A stretch of 20,315 nt of DNA from Chloroflexota bacterium (GTDB lineage Bacteria > Chloroflexota > Ktedonobacteria > Ktedonobacterales > Ktedonobacteraceae). Where the stretch lies: the NCBI GenBank assembly GCA_902810755.1, contig CADDYT010000114.1, positions 1-20,315 on the forward strand, read 5' to 3'. The notes under the pieces are model-generated. The model did not search any database and was not told the origin of the DNA. It saw nothing but the letters and a program-made list of their open reading frames with translations. Position 1 is the first letter of the stretch. Each line of letters begins with the position of its first letter. Positions 4,484 through 18,538 of the stretch are shown in pieces. A program made the translations under genes and the position numbers.

Positions 4484-5410
4484 ATGGCTACTATTATTCA
4501 GACCAACCGGCTCACGAAAAGCTATGGCAGGAACCGGGGCATCATCGACGTAACCTTCGACATTCAGGAGGGCGAGGTTTTCGGCTTCCTGGGACCCAAC
4601 GGCGCAGGCAAAACCACCACCATGCGCACGCTGATGGGCCTGCTGCGCGCCAACAGCGGCAGCGCCACCATTGGCGGCCTGGATTGCTGGACGCAATCTA
4701 CCGAAGTCAAGAAACTGGTCGGCTATCTGCCCGGCGAGTTCACCTTTGATCCTGGCCTGCGCGGCGGTCAGATTCTCGAATACCTGGGCCACCTGCGCGG
4801 CGGTGTCGACCAGACATACCTCAAGCAGCTCATTCAGCGGCTCGATCTCGACCCCACACGCAAGTTTCGTCAGTATTCGAGCGGCAACAAACGCAAGATC
4901 GGGCTGATTCAAGCTTTCATGCACAAGCCTCGCGTCCTCATCCTCGACGAGCCAACCAGCGGGCTGGATCCGCTCAACCAGCAGGAATTCTATAAAATGG
5001 TGGCTGAAGTGCGCGCAGAGGGACGTACTGTCTTTCTCTCCTCGCACATCCTGCCCGAAGTCGAACACACCTGCGACCGCGTGGCGATCATTCGCGAGGG
5101 ACGGCTGGTCAAGATCGATCACGTCTCCGCGCTCAAAGACATCCACCAGCACGACGTGGAGATCAGCTTTGCCGGGCCTGCCACCCCGACGTGGTTTGAG
5201 CATGTCGCGGGCGTCATCAAAGCGGAAGCCGGAGCCGACGGGCGCACCGTGCAACTGTACGTGCATGGGCCATTGACAGAGGTCATCAAGATCGCGGGCG
5301 AACGGGGCGCGACGAATATTGTGACGCACGAGCCGACGCTGGAAGAGGTCTTCCTGCGTTTCTATCAGGGCGATGATCAGACGGCAAAGGAGGCCAGCTA
5401 TGTGGTTTAA
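4484..5410 (+). CDS. ABC exporter ATP-binding subunit (with DUF4162-like tail)
   Basis: This is the nucleotide-binding subunit of an ABC-2 type exporter, powering the permease encoded next. The Walker A loop GPNGAGKTT is at residues 37-45. A variant signature SSGNKRK sits near residue 138 in place of LSGGQ, as is common in CcmA-type drug ATPases. Walker B LILDEP follows with D-loop SGLD and H-loop SSH. The last ~80 residues have the shape of the C-terminal extension found in antibiotic ATPases. The ATG at 4484 has AGGGAG about 5 nt upstream; an upstream TTG at 4448 is less likely. The stop overlaps the permease start by 11 nt, so the two are translationally coupled. Confidence 0.93.
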   Translation: MATIIQTNRLTKSYGRNRGIIDVTFDIQEGEVFGFLGPNGAGKTTTMRTLMGLLRANSGSATIGGLDCWTQSTEVKKLVGYLPGEFTFDPGLRGGQILEYLGHLRGGVDQTYLKQLIQRLDLDPTRKFRQYSSGNKRKIGLIQAFMHKPRVLILDEPTSGLDPLNQQEFYKMVAEVRAEGRTVFLSSHILPEVEHTCDRVAIIREGRLVKIDHVSALKDIHQHDVEISFAGPATPTWFEHVAGVIKAEAGADGRTVQLYVHGPLTEVIKIAGERGATNIVTHEPTLEEVFLRFYQGDDQTAKEASYVV

Positions 5411-7049
5411 GAGCATCTACCTCAAAACGCTGCGCGATTTCCGCGTTGCCATTGTGGGCTGGGGTGTGGGCATGGGCCTGCTCATGTACGTTCTCCTGTC
5501 TGCCATACCCTCGCTGATAGCAACGCCGCAGGCGCGGGCCTCACTCGTCAGCCTCGCCAGTTCGTTTACCTGGCTTGCCGACCCTGTCGCGGTCGATACC
5601 GTTGGCGGCTACGCAACCTGGAAATACGGCCTTACCATCTTAATCATCGCCGTCTGGGCGCTTCTGGCTGGCAGTCGCCTGTTACGCGGCGAGGAAGAGC
5701 GCGGCTCAATGGATACCTTGCTCTCCGTGCCGGTCGGGCGCACGCACATTGCCCTGGAAAAGCTGGCCGGATTGTGGACGGCTCTGCTTCTGATAGGCCT
5801 GCTGATAACACTGCTCACCTTTGCAGGCGCCAGGAGTACCAACGCCGACTTCGGTTTCGCCGATTCCCTGCTCTTCAGTCTGAATATCGTGCTGACCTGC
5901 GGCGTTTTCGGGAGCATTGCCCTGCTGCTCTCCCAGTTTACGCGCGAGCGCGGCACAGCTGCGGGGATCACAGGAGCTTTGCTGCTCATTTTCATCGTGC
6001 TGGATATGGTCCATCGTGTCGTCCCCAATACGGAATGGATCAGTCGCCTCTCTCCCATCTACTACTACAACCTGAGCAAGCCGCTCATCCCATCCTATGG
6101 CACGAACGCTGGCGCAATGCTCGTTTTGCTGGCCATCAGCATCGTCTTGAGCGGAGCCGCCATCTGGCTCTTTGCAGGGCGCGATGTCGGCGCGACGGTG
6201 GCACTGCCCGGCTCTCCTGGCCTGACAGGGCGAGCGGCGCCGTCTGAGCTTGCGCTTCCCGTGAATGACTGGTCACTGCGCTCGGTCTATGCTCGCAGCC
6301 TGGCAAAGCTCGCGGTTCCCACCTTCTGGTGGACGCTCATCATTGCCGGATTTGCTGCCTGGATGGTGGAGATCGTCAAGCAAATTGAGGTGCAAATGAG
6401 CAGCCTTTACGCCAGCTCACCTCTACTGAAGGATCTGGTCAGCAAGGTTGGCGGCGGCGATATTACTACAAACGCCACCCTGCTGAGTTTTCTCTTCGTT
6501 TTCCTGCCGCTCCTGTTGATGGCCTTCGCCGTCACGCAGGTGAACGGCTGGTCTGCCGATGAAGAGGACGGGCGGCTCGAACTCCTGCTTGCCACGCCGC
6601 AGCCACGCCTGCAGGTACTCCTGGGCCGCTTTGCCGCCCTTACCACCGCGCTGGTGATTATCGGTGTAGTCACCCTGGCTGCTACCGCGCTGGCCTCGAC
6701 CGCCACAGGCCTGAAGCTCGACGGGGGTAATCTGGCCGCCGCCTCACTGGGCATAATCCCGCTGGGATTGCTGATCGCTGCTCTGGGCTACCTGCTTGCA
6801 GGCTGGTTGCGCACGGCGTTCGATACTGGCCTTTTGAGCTTCTTGCTGGTCCTCTGGTTCTTCATCACCTTTGTCGGCCCTGAGTTGAACTGGTCGGATG
6901 CGGCCCTGCGCCTCTCCGCCTTCTATTACTACGGGACACCGCTCTTGCACGGCCTTCCCGCAGGAGATACGCTGGGCCTGCTGGCCGTCGCTGTCGTGGC
7001 GCTGGCGCTTGCCTCGCTGCGTTTTATGCGCAAGGATATCGGACACTGA
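5400..7049 (+). CDS. ABC-2 type exporter permease (COG3559, polyketide-exporter type)
   Basis: A protein of 549 residues with two similar halves, each with about six hydrophobic segments. Each half also has an LL-x-x-x-x-x-R-x-x-x-x-x-E/GR cytoplasmic loop: SMDTLLSVPVGRTHIALEKL and RLELLLATPQPRLQVLLGR. That duplicated layout matches the long ABC-2 permeases annotated as putative exporters of polyketide antibiotics. A single gene would form the whole membrane pore with two copies of the upstream ATPase. The start is the ATG at 5400, with AAGGAGG 6 nt upstream and 11 nt of overlap with the ATPase gene. Together with TetR this looks like a self-contained, drug-inducible efflux operon. The two P450 genes downstream are on the other strand, so a biosynthetic link is only a possibility. 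Confidence 0.88.
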   Translation: MWFKSIYLKTLRDFRVAIVGWGVGMGLLMYVLLSAIPSLIATPQARASLVSLASSFTWLADPVAVDTVGGYATWKYGLTILIIAVWALLAGSRLLRGEEERGSMDTLLSVPVGRTHIALEKLAGLWTALLLIGLLITLLTFAGARSTNADFGFADSLLFSLNIVLTCGVFGSIALLLSQFTRERGTAAGITGALLLIFIVLDMVHRVVPNTEWISRLSPIYYYNLSKPLIPSYGTNAGAMLVLLAISIVLSGAAIWLFAGRDVGATVALPGSPGLTGRAAPSELALPVNDWSLRSVYARSLAKLAVPTFWWTLIIAGFAAWMVEIVKQIEVQMSSLYASSPLLKDLVSKVGGGDITTNATLLSFLFVFLPLLLMAFAVTQVNGWSADEEDGRLELLLATPQPRLQVLLGRFAALTTALVIIGVVTLAATALASTATGLKLDGGNLAAASLGIIPLGLLIAALGYLLAGWLRTAFDTGLLSFLLVLWFFITFVGPELNWSDAALRLSAFYYYGTPLLHGLPAGDTLGLLAVAVVALALASLRFMRKDIGH

Positions 7050-8468: not shown

Positions 8469-9620
8469 TCAAGGCGAGTTTGTCATAGCAAGCCAGTTCG
8501 AAGCTTCGACGCACAGTCGCGTCAGTTGCGCCATGCCAGCGGCGATGGGCGAGATGGTGAGAAACTCTTCCAGCGTGTGCGCGCCTTCGACCCGCGTGAT
8601 GCCAATGCAGATCGCCGGAATGTTGAGGCTGATGGGGATATTGGCGTCAGTGCTTGAGGCGCCGTAGCGCGGCTCCATCCCCAGCCAGGTGAGGGCGTCG
8701 GCGGCAAGTTGTACGAGCGGGGACGAGCGACTCAACTGCCCTGCCGGGCGATTTCCCAGTATCTCAATTTCCGTTTGCAGGCCGGGGCCTGCGCGCTGCT
8801 CAACGATTGCCCGCACCTCATCCGCCAGCTTATCAAGGGCAGCGACATCGACGGAACGCATATCGAGCAGGGCAGAAGCCTGTGCGGCGATGGTGTTGAC
8901 GCTGGTGCCGCCCTCGATGATACCGACATTGAAGGTCGTTTTTGGCTGCTGCGGCACTGCGAGGTCGGCAATGGCAGCGATGATGCGGGCCAGCCCGTGA
9001 ATGGCGCTGGGCGTGCCAAAAGCGCCGTAGGAATGTCCGCCGGGGCCGCTCACGATGATACGCCAGCGTTGAGAACCAACGGCGATATGGGTGAGATGGC
9101 CCAGGCTGCCATCAACGGCGATGACGGCGCCCAGTTGCGCACGGTAGCGTTCAACTGCCGTGCGCGCCCCCAGCAGGTTGCCCAGTCCCTCTTCGCCCAC
9201 ATCGGCCACCGCGACAATATCGACGGCGGTCTCTATCCCCAGTTCGTCCAGGATGTCCAGCGCGCTTATGATGGCGGCAACATTGACGCTGTTGTCGCCG
9301 ATGCCGGGGCCGCGCAGAATGTCCTCTTCGCGCTTCACCACGATAGGCGTTGTCTGTGGAAAAACGGTATCTGTGTGCGCCAGCAGCATCAGCACCGGCC
9401 CCTGCCCGCGTTTGCCGCGCCGCACATAGACATTGCCAACAGCATCGATCTCCGGCGTATAGCCACGCTCCTGCCAGAGAGAGACGATCAGTTGCGCTCG
9501 CTCCCACTCATGGCCTGTTGGCGCCGGTACCTCACAGATACGCCGGGCGAGATCGGCAACGGCTTCGGTATGCTGCGCTGCGGCGGCGCGTAGCTGGCTC
9601 GATACGGATTCCGGGATCAT
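8469..9620 (-). CDS. M20-family zinc metallohydrolase (peptidase/deacylase)
   Basis: A cytosolic amidohydrolase of 383 residues in the M20/M25/M40 clan (ArgE/DapE/CPG2/LysK relatives), which cleave amide bonds with a two-metal site. Visible metal and catalytic residues: H82-x-D84 in LLAHTDTVFP, D109 in GPGIGDNS, the E143-E144 pair in DVGEEGLGN, and a C-terminal His in GAHTLEEF. The inserted dimerisation domain starts near VSGPGGHSYGAFG, a usual M20 signature. The ATG at 9620 has AAAGGAGAG about 6 nt upstream. Only 13 nt separate it from the YbaK-type gene, so they are surely co-transcribed. The substrate (peptide, acyl-amino acid or carbamoyl compound) cannot be fixed. Confidence 0.92.
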   Translation of the reverse strand: MIPESVSSQLRAAAAQHTEAVADLARRICEVPAPTGHEWERAQLIVSLWQERGYTPEIDAVGNVYVRRGKRGQGPVLMLLAHTDTVFPQTTPIVVKREEDILRGPGIGDNSVNVAAIISALDILDELGIETAVDIVAVADVGEEGLGNLLGARTAVERYRAQLGAVIAVDGSLGHLTHIAVGSQRWRIIVSGPGGHSYGAFGTPSAIHGLARIIAAIADLAVPQQPKTTFNVGIIEGGTSVNTIAAQASALLDMRSVDVAALDKLADEVRAIVEQRAGPGLQTEIEILGNRPAGQLSRSSPLVQLAADALTWLGMEPRYGASSTDANIPISLNIPAICIGITRVEGAHTLEEFLTISPIAAGMAQLTRLCVEASNWLAMTNSP

Positions 9621-9633
9621 AGCTTGCTCTCCT

Positions 9634-10098
9634 TTATCTGGCAAAGGACGCGACAACAGGTGAAACCAGCGCGCGCAGGTCGGCGCTTTTCATGGCAATT
9701 GAGTGCGTGGTACTGCCGGGATTGAAATTGACCACCTCATTCTCGAACAGCCCTTCATCGAAGTAGGTGGGCAGCCCCAGAATATTGCCGAAGGGCGGCA
9801 CGCTGCCCATTTTGACACGGGCAACACTTTCGGCCTCCTCCTCGGTCGCGAAACGCAGGTGGCGCACGCCCAGAATGGCACGCAGCCGCTTCCAGTCAAG
9901 CTGTTTGTCGGCAGGCAGGACGAAGAGATAATAATCGTCTTCCTTGCCGCGCACAATCATAGCCTTCGCTCCCGTTTTGAGGGCGACGCCGCGCAATCTC
10001 GCCGCCTCCTCGCTGGTGCGCACTGCCCTGTGTTCCGTCAATTTGTATGGCACATGCCGTTCTTCCAGCAGCGCGAGAATCTGTTCAAAGACACTCAT
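9634..10098 (-). CDS. YbaK/EbsC-type aminoacyl-tRNA editing protein
   Basis: A stand-alone YbaK/ProX editing domain of 154 residues. Such proteins hydrolyse wrongly charged tRNAs, for example Cys-tRNA(Pro) or Ala-tRNA(Pro), in the cytoplasm. Recognisable features are the N-terminal helix EQILALLEERHVPYKLTEH, the central strand GAKAMIVR with its conserved Lys, and GSVPPFGNILGLPTYFDEGL near residues 99-118, the substrate-pocket loop. The length is normal for a single-domain member. Its exact amino acid and tRNA specificity is not readable. It lies 50 nt after a lipoprotein gene and 13 nt before the M20 hydrolase gene on the same strand, suggesting one transcript, though this pairing has no obvious shared pathway. 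Confidence 0.9.
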   Translation of the reverse strand: MSVFEQILALLEERHVPYKLTEHRAVRTSEEAARLRGVALKTGAKAMIVRGKEDDYYLFVLPADKQLDWKRLRAILGVRHLRFATEEEAESVARVKMGSVPPFGNILGLPTYFDEGLFENEVVNFNPGSTTHSIAMKSADLRALVSPVVASFAR

Positions 10099-13952: not shown

Positions 13953-15665
13953 ATGGCAAAGCAAGAGGAACAATACCTGGGCAGGCAGCTGGGAAACTAC
14001 CGCCTCACCCGGTTCCTGGGCCGGGGAGGCTTCGCAGAAGTCTATCTCGGCGAACATATTTACCTGGGAAGTTATGCCGCCATCAAAGTCCTGACCACCG
14101 CCCTCTCGGAAGAGGAGGTTGAGCAGTTTCGCAATGAGGCCCGCACCATCATCAATATCGAACATCCCAATATTGTGCGTGTCTTTGACTTCGGCATCGA
14201 AGGCTCCATCCCTTTTATTGTCATGAGCTACGCGCCCAACGGCTCATTGCGCAAACGCTACCCGGCGAGAACTCGCCTCCCTTTACCTGTAGTGATTACG
14301 TATGTCAGGCAGCTTGCCTCCGCCTTGCAGTACGTGCATGACCGCAAAATTGTCCACCGAGACATCAAGCCGGAGAACATGTTGCTGGGGCGCAATGATG
14401 AAGTCTTGCTCACCGATTTCGGCATTGCCGCTATCGCTCGCAGCACCAGTTCGATCAGCACTGAGGCCGGCAGCGGTACCCTCTACTACATGGCTCCCGA
14501 ACAGATTCAAGGCAAGCCGCGCCCGGCCAGCGATCAATACGCGCTGGCTGTGGTGGCCTACGAATGGCTGACCGGCAACCGCCCCTTTGACGGCACTTCG
14601 TGGGAAATTATTTCGCAGCACCTTTCAACGCCGCCACCTCCCTTACGCCAGCAAGTTCCGTCCTTGCCAGAGGCGGTTGAGCAGGTCATCTTGCGGGCGC
14701 TGTCCAAAGACCCGCACCAGCGTTTTGACACGGTGAGTGAATTTGCCGCCGAACTGGAGCAGGCGGCTACCAGACCATCGCGGGGCGCGCTGCTCTGCGC
14801 CTATCGCGGCCACAGCGAACTCATCTGGTCGGTGGCCTGGGCGCCCGATGGCTCGCGCATCGCTTCGGCAGGCGTCGATAAAACGGTTCAACTCTGGGAA
14901 GCGCGCACGGCCAATCCCATTCTGACCTACAGTCGCCACGCCCAGCCGATCCTCTCGGTGGCCTGGTCGCCCGACGGCACCCGCCTCGTCTCAACGGATA
15001 CCGAATATATAGCGCGCGTCTGGCTGGCGCGCACAGGACAGCATATGCTGACCTACCTCGGACATAGCGACCAGGTCTGGGCAGCGGCATGGTCGCCCGA
15101 TGGCGCGCTCATCGCCTCGGCAGGAGCTGACAAAACAGCGCAAGTGTGGGAAGCCGCCACCGGGGAACGCCTGCTCAGCTATCGTCAGCACAAAGGAACA
15201 ATCGACGCCCTGGCATGGTCGCCTGATGGTACGCGACTCGCCTCCGCCAGCGATGACCGGACGGTGCAAATCTGGCAGGCGCGTACAGGAGCAACAGTGC
15301 TGACATATGCAGGTCATACAAACGAAGTATGGGCAGTGGCATGGTCACCGGATGGCATACTCATCGCCTCGGCTGGCCGCGATAAGACCGTTCACATCTG
15401 GCAGGCGCAGACGGGCCGTCAGCTTTTAACATATAAAGGGCATACAAACTGGATCAGAGCCGTCTCCTGGTCGCCGACGCGACCCATCATTGCCTCCGCC
15501 AGCTACGACGGCACGGTGCAGGTATGGGAAGCCACAACAGGCAAAACGCTCTATACCTACCGGGGCCACACCCGCGAAGTCCTCGCCCTGGCATGGTCGC
15601 CCGACGGCACCCACATCGCTTCAGCCGGGGGCGACGGCACTGTGCAGGTCTGGCAGGCAATCTAA
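13953..15665 (+). CDS. Ser/Thr protein kinase fused to a seven-blade WD40 propeller
   Basis: A 570-residue fusion. Residues ~16-272 form a Hanks-type kinase with glycine loop GRGGFAEV, catalytic K45, alphaC E62, HRD as HRDIKPEN (D137), DFG at 155-157 and APE at 181-183. All catalytic residues are intact. There is no transmembrane segment, so it is cytosolic, unlike PknB-type receptors. From ~282 on there are seven WD40 repeats (GH ... V-x-x-x-x-WSPDG ... IASAG-x-D-K-T-V-x-x-W), enough to close one propeller that likely recruits partners or substrates. Bacterial kinase-WD40 fusions are typical of Chloroflexota, Cyanobacteria and Planctomycetes. AGGGA lies about 7 nt upstream of the ATG. Promoter boxes indicate single-gene transcription. 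Substrates unknown. Confidence 0.96.
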   Translation: MAKQEEQYLGRQLGNYRLTRFLGRGGFAEVYLGEHIYLGSYAAIKVLTTALSEEEVEQFRNEARTIINIEHPNIVRVFDFGIEGSIPFIVMSYAPNGSLRKRYPARTRLPLPVVITYVRQLASALQYVHDRKIVHRDIKPENMLLGRNDEVLLTDFGIAAIARSTSSISTEAGSGTLYYMAPEQIQGKPRPASDQYALAVVAYEWLTGNRPFDGTSWEIISQHLSTPPPPLRQQVPSLPEAVEQVILRALSKDPHQRFDTVSEFAAELEQAATRPSRGALLCAYRGHSELIWSVAWAPDGSRIASAGVDKTVQLWEARTANPILTYSRHAQPILSVAWSPDGTRLVSTDTEYIARVWLARTGQHMLTYLGHSDQVWAAAWSPDGALIASAGADKTAQVWEAATGERLLSYRQHKGTIDALAWSPDGTRLASASDDRTVQIWQARTGATVLTYAGHTNEVWAVAWSPDGILIASAGRDKTVHIWQAQTGRQLLTYKGHTNWIRAVSWSPTRPIIASASYDGTVQVWEATTGKTLYTYRGHTREVLALAWSPDGTHIASAGGDGTVQVWQAI

Positions 15666-15967: not shown

Positions 15968-17293
15968 CTATCCCGGAAACTGGATACCGAAGAGGCCAAG
16001 AACCTGCGTAACAAGGTAGAGCAGGGCCAGAAAGCTGACGATAATGGTCAGCGCGTAGGCCAGAATATTGTAGAACAGGCCGTTGGTATAGCGTCCCATC
16101 AGGCGCTTGTCGTTGACAAGGCGCAGGATGGTAAAGAGAATAATCGGCAGCAACAGGCCGTTGAGCATGTAGAGGTTGAGCAAAATTGGCACCACCGGCA
16201 GGTTGGGTACCATCGCTACCACCACGCCAACCACAATCAGCAGGGTAAAGAGCGTCCAGAAAAAGGGGGCTTCTCGCCAGCGCCTGCCAACGCCTCTTTC
16301 CATGCCGAGGGCTTCGGCTATCGAATAGCTGGTGGAGAGAGGCAGCACGGCGGCGGCGAGGAAGGCGGCGCCGATCAGGCCAAGCGCGAAAGCATCCCTG
16401 GCAAAGACGCCCAGAAACGGGGTCAGCGCCTGTGCGGCATCGGCTGCTGAAGCAAGCGCAACGCCCTTGCCCCCGCTATGCGCAAAGAGCGTGGCGGCCG
16501 TTGCGACCACAATAAAAAAGGCGATGGTATTGGAAAAAACAGCCCCCGCGTAGACTTCGAAGCGTTCATATTTATAATCGCTCATACTGATGCCTTTATC
16601 AACAACGGCGCTCTGCACGTACAACTGCATATAGGGGCTGATGGTGGTGCCTGTAGCTGCGATCAGCGTCAGGATATAGCCGCCGTTCAGTTGAATGGTG
16701 GGAATGACGGTTCCGGTCAATACCTGTCCCCAGTCCGGTTTCGCGAGAAAGGCGGAGATGATATAGGCAAAAAAGGTGAAGGTCAGGGCGAGGAAGACCT
16801 TCTCGACGCGCTCGTAGGAGCCGCGAGCAACGAGCAGCCAGATCAATATGCCGCCAGCAGGGGCGGCAATCCAGCCGGGAACGCCAAAAAGGCCGAGCGC
16901 GGCAGTAATGCCGATAAATTCAGAGACAATGATTCCGCCGTTTGCGACCAGGAAGATCAGCATAATAAAGGCCGTCAGTCGCAGGGGAAAGTTTTCGCGA
17001 ATCAGGTCAGAAAGCCCTTTGCCCGTGACTGCTCCCATGCGACTCGCCATTTCCTGCACAATTGCCATGCCCACCGTGAGTACGACCAGCGTCCAGAGCA
17101 TCTGGTAGCCGAACTGCGCGCCCATTGTGCTGTACGTATAGATGCCGCCGGGGTCGTTTCCCGCGTTGGCGGCGATCAGGCCCGGCCCAAAGATGCCGAG
17201 ATAGAACAGCAGGCGTGAACCACGCTTCCTCAGATGCTGCCGATGTCGGCGACCTACACGCTCCCGATTCTCCTGTGGGATGATTTTGTCCAT
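15968..17293 (-). CDS. NRAMP-related (SLC11-type) transporter, probable Mg2+ importer
   Basis: A 441-residue LeuT-fold metal transporter with about 11 hydrophobic helices. The TM1 motif reads D47-P-G-G50 (NDPGGIYTYSTMGAQFGYQ) where Mn/Fe NRAMPs have DPGN. TM6 reads GTTISPYMQLYVQSAVVDKG (215-234) where they have MPH, so the soft-metal-binding Met is Ser219. Loss of the Met and Asn is the hallmark of the NRAMP-related magnesium transporters (NRMT group). The 5' leader is an M-box Mg2+ riboswitch, which independently supports magnesium uptake in low Mg2+. The ATG at 17293 has AGGGAGG about 8 nt upstream. Monocistronic, convergent with the kinase gene. A generic Nramp Mn2+ role is the less likely alternative. 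Confidence 0.9.
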   Translation of the reverse strand: MDKIIPQENRERVGRRHRQHLRKRGSRLLFYLGIFGPGLIAANAGNDPGGIYTYSTMGAQFGYQMLWTLVVLTVGMAIVQEMASRMGAVTGKGLSDLIRENFPLRLTAFIMLIFLVANGGIIVSEFIGITAALGLFGVPGWIAAPAGGILIWLLVARGSYERVEKVFLALTFTFFAYIISAFLAKPDWGQVLTGTVIPTIQLNGGYILTLIAATGTTISPYMQLYVQSAVVDKGISMSDYKYERFEVYAGAVFSNTIAFFIVVATAATLFAHSGGKGVALASAADAAQALTPFLGVFARDAFALGLIGAAFLAAAVLPLSTSYSIAEALGMERGVGRRWREAPFFWTLFTLLIVVGVVVAMVPNLPVVPILLNLYMLNGLLLPIILFTILRLVNDKRLMGRYTNGLFYNILAYALTIIVSFLALLYLVTQVLGLFGIQFPG

Positions 17294-17332
17294 TGGCGCA
17301 CCTCCCTGTCAGGGGCAGACTCAGAAAAGAGC

Positions 17333-17363
17333 AATAAAAATACCCCCATCACTAACGAGGGGG
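17333..17363 (-). terminator. Riboswitch expression platform terminator
   Basis: On the minus strand CCCCC (17363-17359) pairs with GGGGG (17347-17343), followed by TATTTTTATT, an intrinsic terminator. An upstream GAGGGGG (17397-17391) can instead pair with CCCCCTC (17363-17357), forming a 7-bp antiterminator. Mg2+ binding to the M-box should favour the terminator, the usual logic for this class. Confidence 0.7.
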
Positions 17364-17402
17364 CGTAATCAGAGCCGCATACAGCACAAACCCCCTCTAG
17401 TT

Positions 17403-17556
17403 GAGCTTTGGCACTGCACGACGTAAGATAGCAGGCAAACTATCCAGCCACTTCGGGTCACGCCTTATGCCGACGAGACCTGGCCTGATCGTTGGCGTCT
17501 CTCGACGTTTCTGATCAGTGGCCTGTGTTCATGCAGCCACCTCACCTAACGAGGTA
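17403..17556 (-). promoter_or_regulatory. M-box (ykoK leader) magnesium riboswitch aptamer
   Basis: Read on the minus strand, the conserved M-box blocks appear in order and spacing: CCTCGTTAGGTGAGG from 17554, GACGCCAA at 17499-17492, GTCGGCATAAGG at 17474-17463, and GTGCAGTGCCAAAGCTC at 17419-17403. These are the hallmark elements of the Mg2+-sensing M-box (Rfam ykoK family), recalled from knowledge of the Bacillus mgtE leader. The aptamer binds several Mg2+ ions and compacts, turning the downstream gene off when magnesium is plentiful. It sits between a strong promoter and the NRAMP-related transporter gene, with a terminator before the ribosome site. Confidence 0.92.
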
Positions 17557-17585
17557 AGACAGAAAACATAGTATTTGTTATTTGT

Positions 17586-17614
17586 ACTATACGGCCCCGG
17601 ACAAGATTTGTCAA
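17586..17614 (-). promoter_or_regulatory. Promoter driving the M-box leader
   Basis: On the minus strand TTGACA (17614-17609) and TATAGT (17591-17586) are exactly 17 nt apart. The expected start near 17579 lies about 23 nt before the first M-box block, giving a leader of about 285 nt. Confidence 0.8.
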
Positions 17615-17695: not shown

Positions 17696-17797
17696 TTATC
17701 CCGGTCTCTGCCGTTCCAGCGTTCGTTTCAACAGCCCGACCAGGGCAATCGTACCGAACCAGAGGGCGGTGATGACCCATGCTCGCTTCTCGCTCAT
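17696..17797 (-). CDS. Possible 33-residue single-helix membrane peptide
   Basis: The peptide is MSEKRAW, then a hydrophobic helix (VITALWFGTIALVGLL), then a basic end (KRTLERQRPG), a typical layout for a small single-pass membrane protein. AAAGG lies 9 nt before the ATG; a longer start at 17821 gives 41 residues but has no ribosome site. A strong minus-strand terminator follows the stop by 14 nt, which supports real transcription. No family is recognised. It lies upstream of the Mg2+ transporter and could be an unrelated small gene or a chance reading frame next to a decayed insertion sequence. Confidence 0.4.
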   Translation of the reverse strand: MSEKRAWVITALWFGTIALVGLLKRTLERQRPG

Positions 17798-17871
17798 CTG
17801 CTTCCGCCTTTCGCTGCTCATTGCATCATGTTTCAAGGGAGAACATTCTTTCCCACCAGATATACGCTCCA

Positions 17872-18538
17872 TTACCAGCAAGGGTTAAGCATTTGTTTGT
17901 TGCGGGGACCAGTACGCACAAGGTCGGTGAGGTGGCCCAAACGTTGATGGGAGTCGCCCCCAGCGCGAGCGCGGTCAGCCGTCTCAATCATACCTTAACT
18001 GAACAGTTTGAAGCCTGGCGAGAGCGTTCACTGCTACCCCACTATCGCATCCTGTATCTCGATGGGATTCATTTTACCGTCCGACATGGAGAGAAAACTG
18101 ACTCGACCATCATCTGTCTCGGCGCTCTTTCCCACCACGCCGCGCCAGCGTTGTGTGGTGTATAAAGAGCGCAATGTGCTTAATGCCATTCCTCATCGGG
18201 AACGCAAAGAGGTCAGTGCGGAACTGGCTGGAATCTTCAAGGCCGCAACGAAGGAGGAGGCTCAGCTCAATTTGGCGGCCTTCAAAGGCAAATACCAGAA
18301 ACGCTATCCCGAAGCGATTCGTAGCCTCTGTGAAGATGAAGAGCATTGGTTGACGTTTTATGCCTTTCCACCAGTGATGCATCGCTACATTCGCACCACC
18401 AATGCGATTGAAAGCTTTTTCAGCAACGTTCGGAAACGGACAGACCAGATTGACGCTTTCACCACGGAAACGAGCTGTCTCACCATCGTGTGGGCCGTGA
18501 TGCAAGATATCCGCTTGCCAAAGATTCCGGTCGGCTAA
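17872..18538 (+). pseudogene. IS256-family (Mutator-type) transposase remnant
   Basis: The left part (frame of 17872, to about 18120) reads VKHLFVAGTSTHKVGEVAQT then GVAPSASAVSRLN and ILYLDGIHFTVRHGEKTD, the IS256 N-proximal domain with the first catalytic Asp. From about 18122 a different frame reads ALFPTTPRQRCVVYKERNVL through RYIRTTNAIESFFSNVRKRT, with the catalytic Glu, to the normal end RLPKIPVG. The stretch normally between them (about 60 residues, holding the second catalytic Asp) is deleted and the frame shifted. About 100 N-terminal residues are also missing. The protein cannot be active. Terminal inverted repeats were not found. Confidence 0.85.

Follow-up and report, generated by a model that had tools for sequence, protein, structure and literature searches.

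The window analysed here (the whole stretch of DNA, 20,315 nucleotides from a Chloroflexota bacterium) carries an SLC11-family transporter gene whose leader matches the M-box magnesium riboswitch. Between 17614 and 15968, in minus-strand order, the unit runs promoter, M-box, terminator/antiterminator region (17397-17333), ribosome-binding site and gene. The limits given to it in a sequence-only reading of this DNA, 15968-17614, coincide exactly with the stop codon and the -35 box. Its features are:

17609..17614, minus strand: -35 hexamer TTGACA (promoter scan)
17586..17591, minus strand: -10 hexamer TATAGT, after a spacer of 17 bases (promoter scan)
17386..17560, minus strand: M-box (ykoK leader) Mg2+ riboswitch aptamer (RF00380 covariance match)
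17551..17554, minus strand: 5' strand of aptamer helix P1, paired with 17395-17392 in the aptamer form (Rfam alignment and constrained fold)
17390..17397, minus strand: predicted switching tract GAGGGGGU, serving as P1 3' strand (17395-17392) or as antiterminator 5' arm (fold)
17342..17364, minus strand: predicted intrinsic terminator hairpin, whose 5' arm (17364-17357) doubles as antiterminator 3' arm (fold and scan match)
17333..17342, minus strand: U-rich terminator tail UAUUUUUAUU (terminator scan and sequence)
17301..17307, minus strand: ribosome-binding site AGGGAGG, separated from the ATG by 7 bases (sequence)
15968..17293, minus strand: NRMT-type SLC11 transporter of 441 residues (441 codons and a stop; start ATG at 17293; ORF and Pfam)

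The transporter gene is flanked by a kinase-WD40 gene and by transposase remnants. The former (13953-15665, plus strand) encodes a Ser/Thr protein kinase fused to WD40 repeats (seven stretches) and is convergent with the transporter gene. The remnants (17779-18538, plus strand) are of the Mutator family, match profile positions 103-184 and 238-372 in two frames, and lie just upstream of the M-box promoter. Elsewhere in the window, a long inverted repeat (1487-1593, each arm about 33 bases) gives microRNA-precursor matches below the gathering score on both strands.

The sequence-only reading had assigned to the leader a consensus promoter, an M-box and a terminator/antiterminator platform, and we recover all three. 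The promoter hexamers match the consensus at 11 of 12 positions and form the best of seven promoter-like sites between 15900 and 18000 (mean 1.2 in shuffles); transcription would start near 17579 on the minus strand. A covariance search with RF00380 matches 17560-17386 of the minus strand along the full length of the model (positions 1-169 of 169; 135.7 bits, gathering score 44; E 6.8e-31). Canonical pairs are kept at 43 of the 46 Rfam model pairs, and the 3' limit of the M-box lies 92 bases from the start of the transporter gene.

The platform consists of mutually exclusive pairings. Enforcing the Rfam pairs joins 17395-17392 to 17551-17554 and lets the downstream arm form the terminator at 17364-17342. 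When no constraint is applied, 17397-17390 pairs with 17364-17357 to form an antiterminator that excludes both P1 and the terminator. The computed energies favour this antiterminator fold (-100.8 versus -88.0 kcal/mol with the aptamer forced, a gap of 12.8 kcal/mol), and they omit Mg2+ and the tertiary contacts of the M-box. The terminator stem has an energy of -12.8 kcal/mol, equally low in 3 of 500 mono-nucleotide shuffles, and its U-tail is interrupted by an A. A plain scan finds two terminator-like sites, against a mean of 2.6 in shuffles; by count alone the terminator is not above chance. The OFF-switch design of this leader is supported by its geometry and by its recurrence in two related leaders (loci L074 and L075), not by energy; the same layout is described for M-boxes in the Figure 1 legend of PMC4072509. 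Among 46 aptamers (the window and 45 relatives), a simple and permissive search run without a shuffle control finds a terminator candidate after 39, and none after those of L068, L079, L087, L088, L109, L110 and L112.

The protein is SLC11/NRAMP-related, as first proposed (Pfam Nramp, 287.6 bits), and it belongs with the Nramp-related magnesium transporters (NRMTs) by sequence, tree and fold. Its best solved relative in a sequence search is EleNRMT (E 3e-107), followed by MntH (4.8e-24); pairwise BLAST gives 44% identity over 412 residues to EleNRMT versus 30% over 313 residues to the Deinococcus radiodurans MntH. An AlphaFold2 model (mean pLDDT 82.2, residues 1-34 below 50) again retrieves EleNRMT best in a fold search (E 3.6e-25, TM 0.83/0.91; best MntH 2.4e-15, TM 0.74/0.84). 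EleNRMT is the one characterised NRMT with which we compared the protein. In the protein tree, eight canonical rows lie on one side of a 100/100 branch and the window protein on the other. It scores below the family cut-offs of NF001923 (125.6 versus 430) and TIGR01197 (68.6 versus 272.5), and passes the broad Nramp_1 model NF037982 (75.8 versus 50). A canonical Mn/Fe NRAMP (MntH) was ruled out by the tree, by these two cut-offs and by the site residues.

The predicted ion site reads DPGG at 47-50 and TTIS at 216-219 (D47, G50, T216, S219) and has no methionine. Eight canonical members in the same alignment have DPGN and ATVM, and where the canonical signature continues from DPGN to MPH the window protein has DPGG and SPY. 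The positions of the MntH alpha-6b histidines are occupied by Tyr221 and by Val226 or Gln227 (a one-residue gap leaves this pair ambiguous), so proton coupling is unlikely. Passages of PMC8806188 give the NRMT consensus as DxxG-TxxA/T and relate the loss of Met and Asn to a widened site that takes hydrated Mg2+. Thr216 fits the alpha-6 part of this consensus, and Ser219 falls outside A/T. Across 71 alignment rows the fourth alpha-6 residue is S in 37, A in 14, T in 12 and M in 8; in rows labelled as having an M-box it is A or T in 13 of 15, with S only in the window and L107. The TxxS site is commonest among proteins lacking an M-box label. The M-box rows were gathered through their M-box, so these residue counts are not a fair sample. 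RNA and protein agree on magnesium, as the sequence-only reading had it: the M-box match and the NRMT-type grouping and site both point to Mg2+ as the probable substrate.

M-boxes precede NRMT genes elsewhere in Chloroflexota. An even draw of 400 genomes from the phylum holds at least 46 M-boxes in 43 genomes, a lower bound because few candidates were scored per genome. Genes downstream (sought on the same strand within 5.5 kb, or up to an earlier contig end) are NRMT-type after 15 of these M-boxes, an ABC double permease after 14, MgtE-type after 11 and a P-type ATPase after two; one M-box precedes only a PRC-MgtE_N protein, one precedes none of these and two have no usable sequence. Locus L101 is counted as ABC, though an MgtE-like protein is present too, and Pfam was applied to nine of the 11 MgtE-type proteins, two of the nine being short pieces. 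At all 15 NRMT-type loci the protein has a DxxG or DxxA motif, a Thr starting the alpha-6 motif and no Met; the 15 include several close relatives and a pair from a single genome, and should not be counted as 15 independent events.

Included in this total are 12 M-boxes from 11 of the 47 genomes that we searched directly in the class of the Dictyobacter genome, which we take to be Ktedonobacteria. Seven of the 12 precede NRMT genes, four an ABC transporter, and one runs into a contig end. By protein search, 46 of the 47 genomes have an SLC11 protein; at 30 such loci (one per genome), an M-box lies within the 1.5 kb flanks at two, and at a third (L044) it lies further up, before a tandem copy.

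The nearest kin of the window protein differ from it in their leaders. Among 24 relatives in species genomes we found neither an M-box nor a yybP-ykoY element at gathering score, with less than 1 kb of upstream DNA at several loci. Eight relatives with 64-74% identity and readable upstream DNA (L001, L002, L010 and L037-L041) have no M-box; a degenerate M-box left upstream of them was considered, and a permissive Rfam scan of these eight loci found none. A DNA search of the 47 class genomes with the window leader found no copy in G001, G026, G035, G036, G037 and G039, the genomes that hold the closest protein relatives. Leaders of the Mn2+-riboswitch type (yybP-ykoY), which the sequence-only reading had named as refuting its claim if carried by homologues, are absent from the window and, at gathering score, from 54 relative loci (24 and 30, with at least two places in both sets and little upstream DNA at some), and Mn2+ riboswitch control of the relatives was rejected on this survey.

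We propose that the gene is transcribed under Mg2+ repression and encodes a Mg2+ importer, with a probability of roughly 0.83. The aptamer match, the geometry of the exclusive hairpins, the protein group and the site residues are computed; Mg2+ sensing, attenuation in vivo and the substrate are what we infer from them. RNA polymerase would begin near 17579 and transcribe the M-box. With sufficient cytosolic Mg2+ the aptamer would compact and P1 would hold the GGGG tract at 17395-17392, leaving the downstream CCCCC arm free to form the terminator at 17364-17342, and transcription would end before the gene. At low Mg2+, P1 would not hold, GAGGGGGU (17397-17390) would pair with 17364-17357, no terminator would form and the transporter would be made. 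It would then import largely hydrated Mg2+ through a widened SLC11 site (Asp47, Gly50, Thr216 and Ser219, no methionine), without a histidine proton path.

The switch could be a true Mg2+ riboswitch and the transporter still import mainly Mn2+, or both ions, so that Mn2+ uptake is coupled to low Mg2+. According to passages of PMC4072509, the M-box-free NrmT of Acidobacterium capsulatum is mainly an Mn2+ importer, EleNRMT is reported to carry Mn2+ as well (a passage of PMC8806188), and the TxxS site is the one commonest in proteins without an M-box label. We nevertheless consider this unlikely: the soft Met ligand and the Asn of DPGN are lost from the site, M-box and NRMT are paired at 15 Chloroflexota places (some of them close kin), and the M-box was proposed in 2014 as a marker of Mg2+-specific members (PMC4072509, in part). 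Less probable still is a degenerate or inactive M-box. The broken U-tail and the predicted preference for the antiterminator would fit such a leader, but its aptamer matches the model at full length with 135.7 bits and 43 of 46 canonical pairs, and its promoter and expression platform keep the order found in L074 and L075.

Leader and gene have different relatives. The protein falls in a 19-row subclade (100/100) with Ktedonobacterial proteins, whose eight genome-anchored members are the M-box-free loci named above. The aptamer tree unites the window aptamer with those from L074 and L075 (99/98); the proteins of these two loci sit in a different NRMT subclade. A protein tree constrained to unite the three proteins is worse by 457 log-likelihood units (AU p 0.00021); forcing the window aptamer with those of L073, L076, L077 and L078 is more weakly disfavoured (AU p 0.029). 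Between the window and L074/L075, aptamers are 86-87% identical and proteins 47%. This aptamer identity lies about 2.6 SD over the trend that the remaining 89 pairs follow; the pairs are not independent, and the groups were named after the identities had been seen. The flanks outside the aptamer, from promoter to ribosome-binding site, are also similar (0 to 3 of 1,000 mono-nucleotide shuffles as high), part of which is shared function of promoter, terminator and ribosome-binding site. The relatives change at the start codon, with the ribosome-binding site and its spacing intact.

Exchange of the leader as a unit is the simplest reading of this conflict, and we infer, with less assurance than for the switch itself, that promoter, M-box, platform and ribosome-binding site are one module exchanged between NRMT subclades. 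The fuller claim, that the whole leader moves as a cassette between distant subclades and has thereby placed, in the lineage of the window, a TxxS transporter of otherwise unswitched kin under Mg2+ control, we regard as an even bet; if it is true, a change of duty can first become visible through a switch, and some TxxS proteins are Mg2+ importers. A somewhat less probable history is vertical: the leader was ancestral to both subclades and most relatives of the window gene lost it, following an old duplication with no exchange. Aptamers do change slowly (that of L073 is 88-92% identical to those of L077 and L076 at 62-64% protein identity, the L073 protein being partial), and some of the seven changes of M-box label needed on the protein tree are possibly losses. 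Such a history has to accommodate aptamers 2.6 SD above the trend (pairs not independent), flanks that are similar beyond the aptamer, and a grouping backed by the aptamer tree and rejected by the protein tree. Discordant relatives could also arise from a chimeric assembly that joined the leader of one organism to the gene of another, which we think improbable given that ribosome-binding site and spacing are preserved where the relatives change, at the start codon, and that, at the protein level, the 90%-identity cluster holding the window protein has four member sequences on five contigs and a 98% relative is found on three.

We compared neighbouring genes to tell whether the leader or the gene had moved, and they gave no decision. 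For the ABC permease gene at 5373-7049, 25 genomes have matches with 57-75% identity and one more has a match with 78% over part of the length, in no clear order. The closest matches of the peptidase gene at 8469-9656 are in G023 (75%; G048 too, over part) and G038 (72%), with lesser matches in G022, G024, G025 and G027 (65-67%) and G026 (61%).

The ABC genes behind 14 of the 46 M-boxes (L067, L069, L070, L071, L101, L102, L103, L112, L127, L128, L131, L132, L134 and L135) encode fused double permeases of about 580-725 residues (in L101 split into two pieces), which share 37-67% identity with the L071 permease. An ATPase gene follows in 11 of the 14, within the DNA read. In L071, L112 and L127, from different lineages, the permease matches BPD_transp_1 in two stretches and the ATPase matches ABC_tran and AAA_assoc_C; NCBIfam offers L071 only names of the nitrate/taurine type, below cut-off. 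This transporter, a candidate Mg2+-controlled importer, may be an added Mg2+ uptake route, or one whose use depends on Mg2+. We found no paper on an M-box-controlled ABC transporter in a search that had most subscription journals outside it. At L103, L127, L128 and L131 an ORF of about 130-175 residues lies between M-box and permease, about 0.7-1.3 kb after the M-box. At L131 (scanned as L098) this ORF matches rubrerythrin with a score under the Pfam cut-off. A similar ORF at L126 (scanned as L085) matches nothing and is not followed by an ABC gene.

Proteins with PRC-barrel, MgtE_N and CBS domains (Pfam for three) occur at M-box loci L076, L077, L078, L107, L109, L110, L123, L124 and L125, beside NRMT genes except at L123, where the contig ends; L076 has two NRMT genes in tandem. 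An MgtE-N partner gene was described for most NRMT members in 2014 (PMC4072509, in part). A Pfam scan of ten window ORFs found no MgtE_N, and no such partner gene adjoins the window transporter.

The sequence-only reading presented the pairing of M-box and NRAMP relative as a departure from what was known, and this is not supported. Passages of PMC4072509 already report, in 2014, M-boxes on Nramp-related genes of the NrmT class with Mg2+ function, and EleNRMT was characterised and its structure published in 2022 (PMC8806188, in part), so the kind of unit found in the window was known. The same reading saw in the gene a case for correcting annotation. For the window gene this is probably right, if already implicit in the literature: databases usually call such a protein an Nramp family divalent metal transporter, a name that does not convey the likely substrate. 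Carrying the correction across relatives by similarity is risky because eight of them at 64-74% identity lack an M-box and the Acidobacterium NrmT is mainly an Mn2+ importer (PMC4072509, in part). The riboswitch marks single genes, not whole subclades, and a near-identical leader stands before quite different NRMTs. What our survey adds is Chloroflexota as a further phylum with the pairing (NRMT genes follow about a third of the M-boxes found in the sample) and the M-box-linked ABC transporter as a possible further Mg2+ route. The pairing had been reported mostly for Clostridia and Deltaproteobacteria (PMC4072509, in part), and our search, with most subscription journals outside it, found no earlier report of it in Chloroflexota, nor of a magnesium riboswitch in Ktedonobacter.

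Among known systems, the NrmT genes Ca_c0685 and Ca_c3329 of Clostridium acetobutylicum share the M-box upstream of an Nramp-related gene, and Ca_c0685 shows Mg2+-dependent expression and rescues a Mg2+-transport mutant; only a subset of NrmT proteins is likely to be high-affinity Mg2+ transporters (all from passages of PMC4072509). Compared with these two genes, taken by description, the window unit has a Chloroflexota host, a TTIS site, no adjoining MgtE-N gene and a leader akin to those of another NRMT subclade. EleNRMT of Eggerthella lenta (PDB 7qia; PMC8806188, in part) has the same fold, the DxxG motif, the Thr starting the alpha-6 motif and no site Met, but has Ala at the fourth alpha-6 position where the window protein has Ser219. 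The D. radiodurans Nramp (PDB 8e6l), a canonical MntH/NRAMP, shares the SLC11 fold, the binding-site Asp and the Glu125 equivalent; the window protein differs in lacking the DPGN/ATVMPH signature and the alpha-6b histidines, and lies across the 100/100 branch. PMC12873925, in part, places 'NRMT-like' proteins as the sister group of canonical Nramps. Finally, the classical ykoK/mgtE leaders (RF00380) have the aptamer and OFF-switch layout in common with the window, but they regulate an MgtE-type transporter, whereas the M-box described here precedes an SLC11-type protein.
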